DNA of 64,000 bases from contig CM065653.1 of the NCBI GenBank assembly GCA_033220425.1, positions 868,001 to 932,000 on the forward strand, given 5' to 3'. The notes beneath the pieces were generated by a model that saw nothing but the letters and a program-made list of their open reading frames with translations, had not been told where the DNA came from and ran no database searches. The translations under genes and the position numbers were made by a program. Shown here one piece after another: positions 2,853 through 48,061 of the stretch (positions within the stretch are counted from its first letter, which is position 1; each line of letters starts with the position of its first letter). The DNA is from Lepraria neglecta (Eukaryota; Ascomycota; Lecanoromycetes; Lecanorales; Stereocaulaceae).

Positions 2853-3225
2853 AGCTCTTTTAGTGCTCCGCCACCTCCCAAATACTAAAGAGCTTGGGAT
2901 CTTGAATTCGGAATTTGCATGCTCTGGTCTTTTTTGGATTCGTGGCGAGTTGTATTCTTGGGTGATGATGATTGTTGCATGCTCTGGTGTTTGGTGGTTT
3001 CATAGAGAGTTGCATGCTTGGTAGAGGAGTTGACAGTCGATCCATTGGCTAAAACGGGGAATGGGAGCCAGGAGTTGAAATATTGCGAGGTTCATTTCCT
3101 CTCGAGCGGTCGAATAGCTTGGGGTAGAACAATAGATTCCCGAAAGTCTCAATTATGGTGCTCCCCCAGATTGCAGACTCCAAGCGCTATGCAACAGTGA
3201 CTATCTTCCATGTTCCCGCTCATGA
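2853..3225. repeat. 3' region with a degenerate 60-bp direct duplication
   Basis: Between the vWA gene and the convergent IMP1 gene, a unit starting TGCATGCTCTGG occurs at 2916-2975 and again, diverged, at 2976-3022. Each copy is rich in TTG and GGT. It probably lies in the 3' untranslated region. No gene is seen. Confidence 0.5.
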
Positions 3226-3792
3226 CTATTTTTCTGGCCGCTGCAGTGTATTCCTCATCCAGCCTATTTCCGACAATGGCCAAATCTTTGCTGTAACCTT
3301 GCCCTTAATCAGCGCCAGAGGCAGCGGTCCATAAGTCCTCGAGTCCCTCGAAGCAGACAAGTTATCACCCAGTAACCAGCAATGGCCCTCAGGCACCTGC
3401 ATCCCCATTAGCCATCTCTTCTCCCCACCCCATCCCCAAAATACAGAACAGAAACACACCTGTATCATCCTCCCCCTCCCCTCCCCCCCATCCCAAACAA
3501 AATCCCCTCCCAACCCCATAACCCTCTTACACCCCTGATCCCCAACCACCATCGGATGTTTAAAATCCACCAAATCCCCGACTTTTATCCTATTACCCCT
3601 TGCGTAAAATTTATTTGTGTAGATAATGTCGCCGCGCACGGAGATGGTGGGGAGCATGGAGGGGCCGGAGGTGGGTGTTATTGTGCCGATGTTTGAGAGG
3701 GTGAAGTGGTAGATTAGGCCGAATTTAAGGAGGAGGATTGCTAGGCGGGTGTACTCGCGGGTGGGGAGGAGGCGGGATATGGGGAATGCCAT
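3226..3792 (-). CDS. IMP1: Mitochondrial inner membrane protease subunit 1-like (S26 signal peptidase)
   Basis: This is an S26-family peptidase of the mitochondrial inner membrane, which removes bipartite sorting signals from proteins sent to the intermembrane space. The Ser box is SGPSMLPT with nucleophile Ser45; the general base is Lys89 in GCKRVMGL; the late family box GDNLSASRDSR is present. A hydrophobic segment at about residues 17-31 would anchor it. The open frame gives 188 residues, but 3397-3459 looks like a 63-base intron (GTGTGT...CAG, with a GCTAAT branch site). It has no stop and keeps frame. Removing it joins MIQ to VPEGHCWLLGDN and gives 167 residues, the normal family size. 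It is convergent with the vWA gene and next to two other mitochondrial genes. Confidence 0.88.
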   Translation of the reverse strand: MAFPISRLLPTREYTRLAILLLKFGLIYHFTLSNIGTITPTSGPSMLPTISVRGDIIYTNKFYARGNRIKVGDLVDFKHPMVVGDQGCKRVMGLGGDFVWDGGEGRGRMIQVCFCSVFWGWGGEKRWLMGMQVPEGHCWLLGDNLSASRDSRTYGPLPLALIKGKVTAKIWPLSEIGWMRNTLQRPEK

Positions 3793-39049: not shown

Positions 39050-42000
39050 ATGCATCACTCGATCAGCCTAATCTCGTTCGGGAAGAAGAGTGGGTATACT
39101 GAGGTGACTGAGTCAACCTCAACCTCAAGTCGACGCCCCAGAGCTCGATCTTCGCTCGACACCTTCATCATACCCCGCCGCACACGGCTTCCATCCAGCA
39201 AGCCAGACCCAACTGATATCCAGATAACACAAAGCCTCCTCACTCACGGCGTGATGCAGCCTCAAGGCAAACAACGGCCAGTCACGCCAGGGCCTCACAG
39301 GTCAAGCCAAACTAAAAGTTCATCCGTACGAGATGGATCACCGGCTGCGAGACCGGGAAGCAGAACAAAGCATCTCCTTCGCTCACCAGTGCCAATGAGA
39401 GTGAGGCCGGCAATAGCAATGCAGCCGCCTCCAAGATTTGGCAGTCGAGAAGTCCTCGTTGTTCCTCACCAGCGCCCACGCGAAGATGGGTTCCAGCAAA
39501 AACACGCTATCACCACCACTCAAGACCAGGGCCATGATCAGGCATATGATGGTGCCGACGAGCCCGAGCAACCGGGAAACATACACATTCCCTCTCGTAT
39601 GACGAATATGACTTGGAGCACCCTCAGCCACCGAGTGTTGACAGATTCTACGTGCAGCTCTCGTCGGTCGGGAGCCTCGTATTTCAAGGATGAGTATAAC
39701 CAGCTGGCAGAGAAGCATGGAATCCGCCGTATGGCTGCAGCATCAAGTGGTGCGTTGAACAGCCCTTTCACAAATTTTGGAATCCTTTGACTGACACTTT
39801 AAAAAAAACATTTCAGATGACGACAATAAAACGAAAGTGACGACCAAATCTCATCAACACGGCTGGATCGCACGGAAGCTCTTTCGCCGATTAACTTCAA
39901 CTTACACCCTCAAAGCGAAGGCAACATACAAAACTCTCACACGTAAGAAGAGCCTCGCAGGAATCCCTTTGCTTTCGGAGGGGGCGCCCAAGAACATTAT
40001 CAAGGGCAAGACTTTGGAAGAAATTGGCCGACTTGGAGGACTGGGCACCCTAGTCCTTCCACATGACTTTGCTGTCGACAATCTAACTCTGCCAACTTGT
40101 CTTTCAGCAACTGCCACCTATCTATGCCAACATGGTAAGTCTGGCCACAACTGAAGACGAGTGAACATTTTAGACTCAACGTGGTACAGGCTGTAATGCA
40201 CCAGGCATATTCCGTGTATCTGGTCAATCAACTACAATCAACGCGCTGTATGATTTCTACGACCACCAATTCTACCATGCCGGAAGCCCCTCCAAGGTCG
40301 AGGAGACAGTTGGTTCTGGCCTCCTTCCTACAAACATAGAACACACTATACCAGACGTTGCCTCACTTTTCAAGAAGATCCTTATTGGCCTACCTGGCGG
40401 TCTGCTTGGCATAGTGGAGCTATTTGAAGTGATTCGAGATATTCTTCTTAACATGGCTCCCGACCCTGAGCTGTCATCCTTGGAGAATACACTCCTGCGT
40501 GCCAAATTAATAGCCCTTGCAGTCTTGAGCGTCACATCGACATACCGCGTCTACCTCATTCAAGCGGTTTTGGGCCTTGCAGCATACTTCGGATCTGAGG
40601 CCGAGAGAGCTGAAGCAGAATGTGCTGCCACCGATGATCAAGGGCAACGACATCAGCCTAAGTCGGAGCTCATGGGCTATCAGTCTCTGGGAGTGGTTCT
40701 TGGACCATTGTTGCTTGGAGACTTGACCGACAAGGTCGACGTTAGTAAATGCGAAAGCCAGGAAGCTGCTCCACGCACCTCAACAGACAGCATGAAGAGG
40801 TCAAAAAAGCAAAAGCGCAACTCAGCCCAAAACAAGCTCGAAAAAGATGCGACTCTGTCTGCCCATGTCGACCGAGCCAAGCTCACGGCAAGCATTATGC
40901 AACTACTATTGTTGATCTGGAAAGATGTCGTCTCGCAATTCAGAGAGATTAATGGTGCAATGAGCGCTTCTTGGCAGACTAGGGGTTCGAGTCAGATCAA
41001 AACTATTCCGAGTCGCGCTGGCAGCAGACTTATACTTAACTCCGAAGAAGATATGCTATTTCCGGACGTTTTAAGTGGACGCAAGCTACCTGACGAGTTC
41101 ACAGGCGGGGCCGTCGTGAAGCGCAAAGTACGGATATCAAGCAGATCACCAATGTCTCATGGTGCCATCAAGGTCTCAGAAGATGACCAGCGCCCACAGC
41201 AGACCTGGCAGCCTGCAGCTGACGAGGAGCACCATGACGAAAGCCCCAAATGTGCCAATGTTATAGAAGCTATGGAACGAAGCTTCGAGCAGCCTATTGA
41301 GCCTGATCGCACGGTCTCCGAGGGTGAACCAGAAACCTCTACGGAAGACATTGACCGGTTCAATCTTGACAAGCGTACGAACTCGGATATCGCAATGGAT
41401 AAGATGGCAATGGGCACGATACGATCTTCCCCTGAAGATGCACCAATATCCACTTCACCAAAAGGATCCGCTAGTCAGGCCTCTTTGATTGGTACACCAC
41501 GAGGACGGGGACGTCAAAGGTCGTCTAGTGACGCACCAGAGACTGCCTTCAAAGTTGTGCATTTACAAAATATTAGCCAGACTCTACCACCCACACCCCG
41601 AAGACTACAGCCGTTCTTGGACAAACCTCTTCCTCCAATAGGAGATTACCAAAGAGCCGAGATTTCACCTCGAACTAGCGAAGACGATGCTGCTGGCACA
41701 CTTCGAAGTGTTTTGCATCAAGGCCCGTCTCGCAGGCCAGAGGAGATACCCTCGTTTCCATCTCGCGATCCTTCACCAAGGGCCCTCTTCCCAACGCGCC
41801 ACGCGTCACCAAATTCTTCATTCTCACCTCGTCAGTCGTCATTGCCAACAGAAGCGCCACTACCAATGAGATCCCTTGAAACATACGATAGCCTTGCTGA
41901 GTATCGGGCACAGTCTGATGCTTACATGCCTCTTCCTAACGGTCCCTACTCACGTAAAGCAAGCGACGCCCAAGTTAACGAGGACGAGCTACCTCCTGCT

Positions 42001-43089
42001 GGCGAAAAACGGAATAGTGTCAAGTTTCTTGCTCAGCAATTCGCTGAAGCTTCGAGAGCTAATCGTAAAGAGGAGGAAGTCGTCAAGGACAGCCTCGTTC
42101 CAACAGTCTATGCCTACATTAAACCTATACCCTCCCCGATGAGTCCTCTCGAGGAACTTTTTACCTCTTTCCCATCGCGGACCCCTAGCCCGGAGAAGGA
42201 GTCTCTCATCCCAAAGCCAGTCCACACTGTCGGTCGTGGTCGAAAATCTGTGAGCCGCTCGCCATCCCCTCCTAAGCAGACAACTCCAAGATCGTCTCAA
42301 GGCAAACGGCCATCTGTGTACAACATCGTGCCAGATCAAGATGCCGTGATTGTAAAGAGGAACACCCTTATGCTTTCTGAATCCTCAGTCTCCGCCAAAC
42401 GCGACCTCTCTTCGGTGCGGCCAGAAGTAGTACCCTCAAGCACCGTTCAATATCTGTCTACTCGCCATCTTTCTGTAACTTCAACTGAATCTCATCGTCT
42501 TCCGAGTCCAACGCTTGAGGAGCCGCTGATGGAGCATCATATCCCGAAACGAGTGACCACTCCTGCTCGCTCTAACTCTCCCAATCGCTCCTCTTCACCC
42601 AGTCGCCTCAATAGGTCCCCCAGCACCAACGACCCCACTCGCACTCGCACGAATAGCTACCTTGATGCAAGCGACAATCTCAAAGCTCTCGGGCGGCACG
42701 GTTCCATGAACGCCACCCTTTATGCCGAGATCTGTCGCTTACAGCGTATGTTGGAGCAAAAAGACGAAGAAGTCTTGGCTGCGAGAAGGGGCTTGGATGC
42801 TGTAAGGGATACTTATAAAGAGAGGGGTTTTGCAGACGAGGGCAAGGGCAAGGGAAGCTGGAATAAAGGGAAACTTGATGATGAGGTTAGGGTTGCGAGA
42901 GAGGAAACTGGACTTTGGAAACGCAGGGCCCAGTTGGCGGAGGAGCAGTCGAAGGGAGTTAGCCGGCTGGCGGGCGTTGTTGCAGAAGTTGGTGATGGAG
43001 GGATCGAGGAGGTGGTACGTGAGAGGAAGGACAGTGGGACGGGTATGATGGGGGAGAATGGGAGTGCTGACTCGGAGGGCAATGATTAA
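39050..43089 (+). CDS. Large RhoGAP-domain protein
   Basis: Exons 39050-39749, 39817-40134 and 40190-43089 give 1305 residues. A basic, Ser/Pro-rich N-terminus is followed by the RhoGAP domain at about residues 318-560. It begins LTLPTCLSATATYLCQHG and carries the arginine-finger loop CNAPGIFRVSGQ, which an intron splits at the Gly. Then come LPTNIEHTIPDVASLFKKIL, PGGLL and MGYQSLGVVLGPLLLGD. The last 700 residues are disordered, with many SP/TP sites, and a coiled coil lies near the end (LYAEICRLQRMLEQKDEEVL). It should stimulate GTP hydrolysis by a Rho-type GTPase and so affect polarity or septation. The exact GTPase is not predictable from sequence. Confidence 0.92.
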
Positions 43090-43782
43090 GTGCATGGAGA
43101 GGTGGATGAGGAGCTTGGACTTGGATTGTGGTTTGGTACGACACTTATCGCTGCAACTGGACAGACATTGTTTGGAGCAGCATGTACAGCGTTGGGGGAA
43201 GTTGGATTTCTTTTTCTTTTTCGTCGAGGCTGGTATGCCTATTCCCTACCTTGACAAGCACGCCGGCATGGAAAGAGACGGTCTTTCGTTAATGGAAAGC
43301 GCCATGGCTTTCTACTTCTTCGTTAGTTGGTATGTCTAATTTTAGCACTGATAGGGTGCGTGGTGTACGGATAGCCTGATACATGGCATGGGGATACGTG
43401 TCAGGCGCTTTGGTGTATGTTTATTCGCTCTTCGATAGATGAGAGAGAAGGAGTGGTAATGTGAGGTTGGGGTTAAGGTTGAGGTTGAGGGGAGAAAGGG
43501 AGGAGTGCAGGCATTCTAAATACCCGGCATAATTATGGAATACACACTATTCAGCACATTTTGATACTACTCAACGTCAACGCCAACAACGCAAGCGACG
43601 AGCACAGAATGAAGCCTTCACTATCCTAAGATATTAAGACCGAAACTCCCTTGGCGCCCAGAGATTATCGAAACTACTTCATTAAAAACCAAAAAAATCC
43701 CAAAAGAAAAATTCAAATATGGCTCAATGGATGGATGGATGGCATGATTTCATTATCATTACCCATATAGCATGAACCACAT
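43090..43782. other. RhoGAP 3' region and unique AT-rich DNA
   Basis: No gene is seen. A short GGAT run lies at about 43726-43741 just before the structured repeat cluster. Confidence 0.45.
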
Positions 43783-43918
43783 AGAACAATTCCTTAGGTG
43801 GAGTTTTCGCAGACCTTCACGGGTAGGCTGAGCTTTTTGCTGTTTTGGAATCTGGGATTTGGGGGGTGTTGGTTCGATGGTTGGTTTGGGCAATTTTTGC
43901 TTTTTATTTTTATTTTTG
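43783..43918 (+). repeat. Structured unit 1
   Basis: The core hairpin starts GAACAATTCC and ends GGAGTTTTCGCAG. CTGAGCTTTTTGCTG follows at about 43828, GGTTCGATGG at 43871-43880, and a long T-rich end at 43893-43918. The variable hairpin is reduced. Confidence 0.65.
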
Positions 43919-44164
43919 CTTGATGAGATGGGAAGGAGGATTGTGCTGATTTTCTGGAAAAGAGAATTATTCCTTTTGTAGAAGGTGAATTTTCTACGAA
44001 TTCCATAGATGAGTATGAGTTTGATCTACATGTTCTTTGCTTTAAGAGGCAAGGGACAGGAATCTAAAATAGAAAACGCAATGAATTGATACGTTGTCTG
44101 CTAAGAGCAATGGATTGACATATTGGCTGGCAATGACCCACAAGCATGTGCTGATTCGTATCTT

Positions 44165-44300
44165 CTCTCCTCTTGGAAACCCCTCTCCTCCAACATCAAA
44201 TCGTCCGGGGTTTCGTAGGCCTTGAATTCCCAAGGGAGACTGGGGGTGAGCCTTTTGCTTATTTGTTTTTTTGGACTTGCTTGGGGTGTTGACTGAACCA
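44165..44300 (+). repeat. Structured unit 2 (diverged)
   Basis: The core pair here is GAAACCCC ... GGGGTTTC with a longer loop, followed by CGTAGGC, a CCTTG-AATTCC-CAAGG hairpin (44220-44235) and GTGAGCCTTTTGCTT. The box-B-like site has decayed to GGTGTTGACTG. Confidence 0.6.
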
Positions 44301-44382
44301 CTTTTCCCTTGGAATTTTCGAGAGAAAATTAGAGTCATTTGTTTTTGTGGAGGTTGAAACTGTTGCAGAGTATAAATAATGA

Positions 44383-44600
44383 AATAAGACTAACCCATTT
44401 GTCCCTAAGGGACTCAACCAATTGGAACACGAAAAATCACAGCCTATCCAAACTTAGGCGAATGCACAGAAAAATCCCTTAATTGGAGTTTTCGTAGGCC
44501 GCTAATTGGCCCTCTGAGGGGGAGAGTTATTTAGTGTCTCCCTTTACTTCGAAGGTAGAAGTTAGATTTCTTATACTGTGGTGCTCGAACGAAGTGTAGG
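44383..44600 (+). repeat. Structured unit 3
   Basis: GTCCC-TAA-GGGAC lies at 44401-44413, the core hairpin (GAAAAATCCC...GGAGTTTTCGTAGGC) at about 44469-44499, and a CCCTC/GGGGG-type variable hairpin follows. The 3' part is poorly conserved. Confidence 0.6.
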
Positions 44601-44680
44601 CAGCGCGCAACTTGCTTCCTTTTGTTTCCTGTCGTCTCAGAAACCAGAGAATTCACTTTGGTTTCTCAGGGTCATATGTC

Positions 44681-44866
44681 GTAATAAGACTGACCGATTC
44701 ACTTGTCCCGCAAGGGACAGGATGACCCCCAGAAAAACTCCTTCACTGGAGTTTTCGTAAAGCCGCTAGAGAAGCTTCCATGGGGGAAGCTCTCTAGCGG
44801 CTGAGCTTTTGCTGTTTTGGTTTGCGGATGTGGGTTCGATTCACTCTCGGGGCTTTGCTCTTTTTT
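44681..44866 (+). repeat. Structured unit 4, with a long perfect-like hairpin
   Basis: TGTCCC-GCAA-GGGACA (44704-44719) is a hairpin with a GNRA loop. The core hairpin is at 44732-44756. The variable hairpin at 44762-44801 pairs 17 base pairs with one bulged A and a 5-base loop. CTGAGCTTTTGCT, GGTTCGATTC (44833-44842) and TTTTTT (44861-44866) follow. Confidence 0.75.
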
Positions 44867-44976
44867 AGTTTCACAGGATACGAGATTTCTCAGTGTTCTG
44901 CTTCCTTTCCATTCTTTGGGGAAAATTGAGTGGCTTATCGTATTCTGGAGGAAAAGTTTGACAAAGATACTGTATT

Positions 44977-45222
44977 AGAACAGGAAGAATTCACTCGTCT
45001 CCCATGGATTCATCACCCGCAAGGGCGGCCCATGGAGACCTAGAAAAATTCCTTCACTGAAGTTTTCGTAGGCCTGCGTCCCCGTCAAGGGCATTTCCCT
45101 TGACGGAGACGCGAGCTGAGCTTTTGCTAAGTTGATTCTTGACTGCGTAGGTTCGATGCCGAGCTGGTGCCTCTATTCTCTTTTTCTCTTTTTTTCTTTT
45201 TTTCTTTTTTTCTTTCTTTCTG
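44977..45222 (+). repeat. Structured unit 5, with a different long hairpin
   Basis: The 5' part forms an outer stem (GTCTCC... with ...GGAGAC) enclosing CCC-GCAA-GGG. The core hairpin is at 45043-45067. The variable hairpin at 45076-45112 pairs 15 of 16 positions with loop CATTT and shares no sequence with unit 4. GGTTCGATGCC is at 45150-45160, followed by a T-rich tail made of TTTTTTTC units. Confidence 0.75.
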
Positions 45223-45270
45223 AGGAAGAGCGTTGCTCATGTTTTAGAGCACAAGTCTGACAAGGTACAT

Positions 45271-45478
45271 GTATCATAATAAGCCCAGCTCACCTGTCCC
45301 ATAACGGGACAACGTAATACCCCCCAGAAAAATCCCTTCACTGGGATTTTCGTAGGTCCAGTCCGTAATACCTCGGAGAGCCGGGCTGAGCTTTTGTAAC
45401 TCCGTTTTTTGGGCGATCGCGGTTCGATGCTGGCTGTGGACCCCAACGCCAATCTTTATTCCTCTATCGGGGTTTTTT
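45271..45478 (+). repeat. Structured unit 6
   Basis: TGTCCC-ATAAC-GGGACA lies at 45295-45311 and the core hairpin GAAAAATCCC/GGGATTTTC at 45327-45351. A weaker variable stem (AGTCC/GGGCT), GGTTCGATGC at 45421-45430 and TTTTTT at 45473-45478 follow. Confidence 0.7.
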
Positions 45479-45834
45479 ATTTTTGGCTTATCTTGACTTT
45501 ATATACCACAGGGGCTGTTTCCTTCGTTTTTGCCGGGGGTCGAGCTATATTGGGGAACTGCTGGTGTTAGTACTGCCTGGGCTGTGTATCAGATGTTTCG
45601 TGATTGGGCTGCGGCAGATGGTTGCACAAGCCCCAGTGCGAGTAGAGAGTGCAGAGAATGACGAGGAGGTAGCAAGAATGCATTTGGCAGGCGACCTGGT
45701 GATTTTATTTGCCCTAGTCTAGCATATGAGACCTTCCTTACGCCTCAAGCACGCATCCATCACTGCAAACCACTCGCATCCTCCATTGTAGCTCCCCCTT
45801 TTAAACCATCCACCTCTCATCCCCGAAATTCTCT

Positions 45835-47127: not shown

Positions 47128-48061
47128 TCAGCGAATTATAGAAGTACCTTTGAGAAGAGATGCTTGGTCTTTCGTAGCACCTGCGAACTTCTGCATCGCG
47201 TTTTCTACTTTCCACACTCTATCGGCATCTATAACCATTTCTGTCAGCATCTTTCAAGGATCTAAAAGGTTCCATTAACGTACCGTTGTGCACCTCCGGC
47301 TCCTCAATATACGCCCTCTTCTCCTTCTTCTGAACGTGCGAGACGCCGTATCTGCTATCCCTCTCTCCAATAAGCTCACTGAACCCAGGACATTGGTCCT
47401 CCTTCGTGAAACTCATCATCAACTCCGGCCCACCCAACGGCAGCTTATCTCCTCTGTCCACCTGCCAGAAGTGATACGTCTTCCCGTATATACCCACTAC
47501 ATCTTCCATCTCTTTCGTCTCTGCCTCCTCCCAAATTCCTGTTGGGAGACCATCGGGACCAGGCATGATCAGCATGCCGCTTTTGACTTCAAAGACGTGG
47601 GAGTGCCAAAGTTTTCGTTCTTCTGGGTCGAGGGTCTTGTAGAGGGTGGCGGAGATCATGTACTCGACGCCTATTAGGCGGGCGTTGGGGGCAGGGGTGT
47701 CGTAGATGAGGCATTGGCGGACGTCTGTAGGGGCGAAGTATCAGCACTGGCGCGGTATGGAGAAGAAGATTATGAGGCCGGTCCAACCTTCATTCAGATG
47801 CGAGCAATAGTGGTTTGCTTCCACGCAACGCTTGGGATCGGAGGCGTAGACATGGAAGGCATTCAGATGAGCACATATTTGCTTGACGGGGGCGAAGCTC
47901 TGATTGGTGACCACCAGATGTCAGTGTCTGGGATCTGTGGGGAGCTTGAAGGGTAAAGGGGTTGGGACCTGTCCAACTGCAGCTCCAGTCTCTAGCACTT
48001 GGCTCTTGGGGGCGAGTGGATTGCCTCGGGCTTCGTTGGTCACATTTTCTGTTGCATTCAT
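47128..48061 (-). CDS. OBAP/DUF1264 family protein
   Basis: Four exons, 48061-47969, 47881-47788, 47724-47284 and 47228-47128, give 242 residues. Family signatures appear in order: [69 protein letters not shown] and [23 protein letters not shown]1264 proteins include plant oil-body-associated proteins; the fungal role is unknown. No signal or membrane segment is seen. The 3' end has two options: reading on to TGA at 47128-47130, or a further intron from a GTACTT donor with a different short tail. Confidence 0.88.

Follow-up and report, generated by a model that had tools for sequence, protein, structure and literature searches.

Two tandem arrays of hairpin-bearing units

The window analyzed here, a 64,000-nucleotide stretch of the Lepraria neglecta genome, lies within contig C8 of an assembly that was searched in full (42.0 Mb in 11 contigs) and has its GC content minimum at 36-60 kb, an interval that includes the repeated units described below. 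Upstream of these units is a RhoGAP gene (ORF 40174-43089), whose Pfam match, at 23.2 bits, falls slightly under the cut-off of 24.5 and whose product best matches OEA41_010010, a Rho-GAP domain protein of L. neglecta (100% identity, 99% query cover). The next Pfam-matching ORF, among those scanned, encodes a DUF1264 protein on the opposite strand (47219-47659). An earlier sequence-only reading of this DNA had stated that no protein frame spans the units. Among start-codon ORFs of at least 80 aa, a single one overlaps them (44042-44338, minus strand, 98 aa), and Pfam returns nothing for it.

That reading had also described six plus-strand units carrying every listed part at spacings of about 263-390 bases. 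Repeated units do exist on the plus strand (array 1, U1-U6), but every part is found only in U4, U5, and U6, with U1, U2, and U3 being partial, and the anchors (the C of CGTAGG, at 43808, 44214, 44493, 44756, 45067, and 45351) give spacings of 406, 279, 263, 311, and 284. The scaffold common to the copies comprises a TATA-like upstream element, three hairpins in fixed order, an CUUGAGCUUUU(U)GC-type linker, a B-box-like GGTTCGAT, and a T run. Hairpin 2 has conserved flanks and a UUCACU-type loop, while hairpins 1 and 3 vary in sequence and length, with most still pairing.

The three complete units follow one another at the 3' end of the array, and their scores, like those of the other units of array 1, are those of a hairpin-2 model. 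U4 (44683-44866, 56.6 bits) carries the box AATAAG at 44683-44688 (spacer of 16 nt), hairpin 1 at 44705-44718, hairpin 2 at 44732-44756, hairpin 3 at 44761-44802, the linker at 44801-44813, GGTTCGAT at 44833-44840, and T6 at 44861-44866. In U5 (44979-45221, 55.0 bits), a variant box, AACAGG (44979-44984), precedes hairpin 1 (44997-45039; GTCTC/GAGAC rather than GTCCC/GGGAC), hairpin 2 (45043-45067), hairpin 3 (about 45070-45117), the linker (45116-45128), GGTTCGAT (45150-45157), and a T-rich tract from 45181; the U5 tail is itself a tandem repeat, (TCTTTTTT)n, of 5.4 copies (45179-45221). U6 (45267-45478, 55.3 bits) begins with the promoter element ACATGTATCATAATA (45267-45281) and the box AATAAG (45278-45283), followed by hairpin 1 (45296-45310), hairpin 2 (45327-45351), hairpin 3 (about 45354-45387), the linker (45386-45396), GGTTCGAT (45421-45428), and T6 (45473-45478).

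The partial units have each kept a different subset of these parts. U1 (43784-43925, 45.6 bits) has hairpin 2 (43784-43808), a short hairpin 3, the linker GGCTGAGCTTTTTGC from 43826, GGTTCGAT at 43871-43878, and later T runs, with neither an upstream box nor a hairpin 1 being recognizable. The degenerate U2 (44176-44275) keeps only CGTAGGCC (44214-44221), a differently built GAAACCCC/GGGGTTTC stem (44176-44183 with 44207-44214), and the linker TGAGCCTTTTGCT (44247-44259), and its match to the hairpin-2 model is not significant (11.3 bits, E 0.8). U3 (44383-44540, 49.4 bits) retains the box AATAAG (44383-44388), hairpin 1 (44401-44413), and hairpin 2 (44469-44493), without the CTGAGCTTTTGCT linker or the B-box-like GGTTCGAT.

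The units had been called a local family, but a second array shows that they are not confined to this site. This array (locus L021, C8:3085.6-3087.0 kb) lies about 2.2 Mb from array 1 on the same chromosome and holds five units, V1-V5, at spacings of 287, 304, 351, and 304 bases, bringing the family to about 11 copies in two tandem arrays. Its units repeat the order of parts seen in array 1, namely, box, hairpin 1, hairpin 2, CGTARAGTC-like link, hairpin 3, CTTGAGCTTTTTGC-like linker, TCRAT motif, and T run, with V5 being without the linker and the TCRAT motif. Within a core of 39 nt, the likeness between units ranges from 56 to 90%. When the two arrays were compared, all matches better than E 0.1 fell inside units, with only two weak matches outside (E 0.12), and the flanks did not align; a block duplication of the whole array was rejected on these unalignable flanks and the restriction of the match to the units, although an unusual short hairpin 3 is common to U1 and V1. 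The surroundings of array 2 include a HET-domain ORF a few kb 5' and, immediately 3', a minus-strand ORF (L021:3284-5251) encoding a release-factor domain of the VLRF1 type, Vms1/ANKZF1-like. Shortly past V5, inspection by eye showed inverted arms, each about 20 bases long (L021:3131-3270, arms near 3131-3150 and 3251-3270, starting CGCCAAAATAAA).

Genome-wide, three patterns returned 4, 6, and 9 places, all within the two arrays and each with none in the reversed control, so that the likeness of the units greatly exceeds chance. Specifically, GAAAA-N(3-6)-TTCACT-N(3-6)-TTTTC occurs at 6 places (reversed control 0), and the hairpin-2 pattern GAAAAANNCCTTCACTGGNNTTTTCGTA, at up to 3 mismatches, occurs at 9 (4 in array 1 and 5 in array 2; reversed control 0). 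Shorter motifs discriminated poorly: TTTTCGTAGGCC at up to one mismatch is unspecific (260 genome places versus 165 in the control), CTGAGCTTTTGCT, with 2 mismatches allowed, matches the window no more often than chance would, and a stricter linker-to-B-box pattern matched nowhere, arrays included, and is uninformative. Five other exact TTTTCGTAGGCC places in the genome, read in plus orientation, have no linker, B-box motif, or unit beside them, with a sixth (L005, minus strand) left out of this count. Under default filters and at E up to 1, neither the window, extended by 10 kb at both ends, nor the stretch from 50 kb upstream to 40 kb downstream of array 2 yielded a copy beyond the known ten. 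A viral or prokaryotic origin was also set aside, as the hairpin-2 pattern has no exact match in the viral contigs or in the GTDB genomes.

The family matches none of the 4227 families of Rfam 15 at gathering score, in either the window or the second array, as the sequence-only reading had supposed; at E up to 10, the interval 43500-45600 gives only 8 matches, all far under their gathering scores. A tRNA-like or tRNA-derived identity was rejected (ARAGORN, in its bacterial-code setting, finds none in the window, and an A box is unconvincing), and snoRNA, hammerhead, group I intron, and Sm-class snRNA identities were weighed by their general descriptions and by the absent Rfam match. Candidate Sm-like sites are AGCUUUUUGC and, in V4, AUUUUUG.

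Pairing and folding of the hairpins

The statistics given below come from related units, and the tests are thus not independent of one another. Hairpin 2 was aligned and modeled over 10 of the 11 units, with U2 left out. In this alignment, which includes a weak outer stem, 107 of 130 cells are paired (82.3%), versus 33-53% when the partner is slid. That outer stem, CCUA/UAGG, is itself unsupported, each of its pairs failing in 3 to 6 of the 10 units. The covariation to which the sequence-only reading had looked for support is present in part. The covariation score of hairpin 2 is 0.140, versus 0.077 in shuffles, with none of 500 reaching the observed value; cells changed on both sides were equalled in 12 of 500 shuffles, and pair 14-25 is seen as GC, UA, CG, and GU. 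On the other side, two of the five measures are not significant, namely, both-side-changed pairs (194/500) and further pair types (97/500).

Hairpin 1 shows the change of stems most directly, occurring as GTCCC/GGGAC, GTCCT/AGGAC, GTCGG/CCGAC, and GTCTC/GAGAC. We exchanged the arms of stems between units, using hand-chosen arms, a choice that favors the structured-RNA reading of the resulting figures: swapped partners paired as well as the true ones in 1 of 20000 permutations for hairpin 1 (9 units, with 43 of 45 pairs formed), in 126 of 20000 for hairpin 2, of which the inner part was swapped (10 units), and in 2 of 20000 for hairpin 3 (8 units, U3 and V5 being left out because the linker is lost there). 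For the hairpin-3 halves, a unit's own partner pairs best in only 5 of the 8 units. The arm swaps and a comparison of the copies agree with the earlier description of differing stems set among conserved linkers and loops.

Folding stability is unevenly distributed. Hairpin 3 is very stable in 4 of 10 units, whose hairpins are unrelated in sequence (z scores of -11.4 in V3, -7.4 in V2, -7.3 in U4, and -6.4 in U5; none of 300 shuffles folds as well in each case). It is marginal in U1 (8/300 shuffles) and V5 (13/300) and not significant in U3, U6, V1, and V4, where at least 5% of shuffles fold as well. Taken alone, hairpin 1 of V1, V2, V4, and V5 and hairpin 2 of U1, U3, U5, and V2 are likewise matched by at least 5% of shuffles. 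The z scores of whole units are mixed: -9.19 (V3), -5.31 (U4), -3.68 (V2), -3.31 (U5), -2.11 (V1), -1.84 (V5), -1.23 (V4), and -0.93 (U6).

Upstream and downstream signals

A similar upstream box is found in the units and in small RNA genes of the same genome. At three loci of the U6 snRNA family and at the SRP RNA gene, an AATAA/AATAG-type box ends 12 nt (±1, depending on register) ahead of the start of the RNA, with 5' ends placed by the Rfam match or by eye. An AATAAG-like box stands 12 nt before hairpin 1 in six of nine units, namely, U3, U5 (as AACAGG), unit U6, V1 (as AATAAC), V2, and V3; the exceptions are U4, with its 16-nt spacer, and V4 and V5, in which the start of the stem is ill-defined. 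The RNase P RNA gene has no such box by eye, and the box is thus not general to structured-RNA genes in this genome. Further, the 15-mer ACATGTAYCATAATA occurs exactly at only three places in the genome, these being two U6-like loci and unit U6, and the distance from it to the first stem is 13 and 13 nt at the former and 14 nt in the latter. With one mismatch, it occurs at four more places that show no unit downstream by eye. As the reversed control itself occurs at 7 places when one mismatch is tolerated, we give weight to the exact matches alone.

The two U6-like loci, L032 (G000:C2:2573604-2573709) and L033 (G000:C2:3573227-3573330), both score above the Rfam cut-off. Their 5' stems are unlike those of the U6 snRNA gene that scores best (C7:424175-424274), and both are preceded by ACATGTACCATAATA, which is absent at the latter. 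They may be U6 variants or pseudogenes.

We scored nine units (U1 and U2, having no box, were left out) with position matrices built from these genes. With a matrix from the best-scoring U6 snRNA gene and the SRP gene, containing no unit, the nine-unit mean peaks at the predicted 5' end, at 2.9 bits against a window background of -10.2 (sd 5.2), where V4 and V5 had their 5' ends set from the box instead of the stem, a choice that favors a pol III reading of the peak. Eight of the nine units fall within the top 3.4% of window positions; the ninth, U4, fails, with 44% of window positions scoring as high. A four-gene matrix (all U6-family loci and SRP) likewise peaks at the predicted 5' end (3.9 bits). 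When only the two U6-like loci contribute to the matrix, the peak moves one base upstream and a good fit is confined to U4, V2, V4, and V5, with four of nine units in the top 2%.

Downstream, the B-box-like GGTTCGAT is present in U1, U4, U5, and U6, and V1-V4 carry GGCTCGATTC, GCTCGATAC, GTTCAATCT, and GTTCGATCC, respectively. The B-box consensus is GWTCRANNC, and by eye, its strict form is found in four of these eight units; the SRP gene has the internal B-box sequence GTTCGAATC. No convincing A box was seen in the units. A run of T5 or longer lies within 60 nt past the motif in all eight motif-bearing units, versus 5% of 60-nt stretches in the window, although array 1 is T-rich, with T5 in 30% of local plus-strand 60-nt stretches. 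In U4, the T run starts 28 nt after the motif, and V5, which has no B-box-like motif, ends in T8. Several units hold T5 in the linker itself, making an earlier pol III stop possible.

Candidate functions and comparison with known RNAs

Our preferred explanation, which we hold to be fairly likely, is that the units form an orphan RNA polymerase III gene family, each member probably making an RNA of about 150-200 nt that probably serves as a protein-bound scaffold. The family, its structure, and the resemblance of its promoter to those of the U6 and SRP RNA genes can be read directly from the DNA. In support of the structured noncoding RNA genes envisaged by the sequence-only reading stand the covariation, the unit-specific hairpins, the second array with its non-matching flanks, and the U6/SRP-like promoter. 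From these we infer transcription, the RNA ends, a partner, and the scaffold role. Specifically, TFIIIB on the upstream box, aided by TFIIIC on the B-box-like element, would recruit pol III; the RNA would start at hairpin 1 and end at the T run, and its U tail could be held by La/LSm-type proteins. The constant hairpin 2 and the single-stranded linkers would then bind a partner, making the RNA the scaffold of an RNP, with hairpins 1 and 3 as structural arms in which pairing, but not sequence, is constrained. U1, U2, U3, and V5 look decayed. As far as Rfam and the literature covered go, the family is undescribed.

One alternative, which we find rather unlikely, is that the units are pol III-made precursors of microRNA-like small RNAs, in which Dicer would release a distinct small RNA from each copy's own hairpin 3, on the model of milR-1 to -4 of Neurospora. 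There, the covered sections of the published account describe a pri-milR-1 of about 170 nt that is intergenic, made by pol III, and equipped with TATA-like elements and a T run (PMC3547838). The stems of hairpin 3 do differ between copies, and several are long: the V3 arm comprises 22 bp (20 Watson-Crick and 2 G-U), and those of U4 and U5 are also long. A Dicer-length hairpin of about 20 bp is present in V3 and nearly so in U4 and U5, but it is not clear in any of the remaining 7 of the 10 units, and V2, at about 12 bp, is among the mere four whose hairpin 3 was unmatched by shuffles. Conservation, moreover, lies in hairpin 2 and the linkers rather than in hairpin 3, and the 22-nt V3 arm, the single arm searched, has no near-perfect target in its own genome, matching at up to 3 mismatches only its own two arms.

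We also judge it unlikely that the units are functionless tandem copies, in the course of decay, of what was once a pol III gene, with their common order reflecting common descent. Such a history would account for the parts lost from U1, U2, U3, and V5, for the 56-90% likeness in the 39-nt core, and for stems that are weak alone, and unequal crossing-over is known to expand and contract tandem arrays. Neutral decay would break stems, however, whereas those of the units stay paired, with paired positions changing together and pairing kept despite sequence change, and the upstream box, linker, and T run are kept in both arrays.

Quite improbable, in our view, is a modular guide-like RNA array, in which hairpin 2 and the linkers would form an unchanging scaffold, made by pol III, that carries a very stable hairpin peculiar to the copy. 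Each copy of this kind would bring its own double-stranded RNA to one common partner, aimed at a target beyond the fungal genome, for instance a virus, a transposon, or the algal partner. With stems that change yet stay paired beside a fixed core, it can be tested cleanly whether these stems are struts, as in the preferred scaffold reading, or unit-specific guides; further, with the loci, the predicted RNA ends, and the promoter defined, the family is directly testable.

The label "SINE-like" fares worst, and a SINE or other pol III promoter-driven mobile element caught in two tandem arrays is very improbable: the B-box-like motif, the T run, and the two sites with non-matching flanks would suit it, but an upstream promoter element exists, and three patterns and two BLAST searches found two tandem sites and no dispersed copies, leaving it unsupported at their sensitivity, which is such that BLAST from array 2 misses array 1 and is thus too weak to link the arrays, so that distant copies elsewhere may escape.

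To our knowledge, few pol III RNAs are known in fungi beyond the universal set. Saccharomyces cerevisiae RNA170 is an unassigned pol III transcript, similar in size to the predicted Lepraria RNA but made from a single gene, and we liken the two by description only. In the titles and abstract openings of the literature on pol III and noncoding RNAs in filamentous and lichen fungi, of which few subscription papers were covered, no such family was found, nor any pol III RNA of lichen fungi outside the universal set, and in the covered part of PMC9757828, its main text, the word "lichen" is absent. Within L. neglecta itself, the U6 snRNA and SRP RNA genes are alike in having an upstream TATA-like element at about equal spacing from the 5' end, with an internal B-box in the case of SRP, but as far as Rfam shows, the sequence and fold of the unit RNA are unrelated to theirs.

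Farther afield, snaR-A of primates and 4.5SH of rodents are, as the Lepraria family may be, lineage-restricted multi-copy pol III RNA genes, and 4.5SH genes exist in many tandem copies. They are set apart, by description, by their internal A/B-box promoters and by a different origin, sequence, and kingdom; in the covered part of their description, the 4.5SH genes have boxes A and B together with a TATA-like box. The SNAR-A genes are clustered on chromosome 19, according to the covered portion of PMC9151912. Nearer are milR-1 to milR-4 of Neurospora crassa, also a filamentous ascomycete, which in the sections covered are similarly intergenic and short, with TATA-like elements, a T-run terminator, and hairpins (PMC3547838). 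The Lepraria family differs from them in being multi-copy and tandem, with a constant second hairpin and linkers and with a very stable hairpin 3 in 4 of 10 units. By analogy, the pol III-made milRNA precursors of Neurospora are the closest functional precedent in fungi for what these units may encode.
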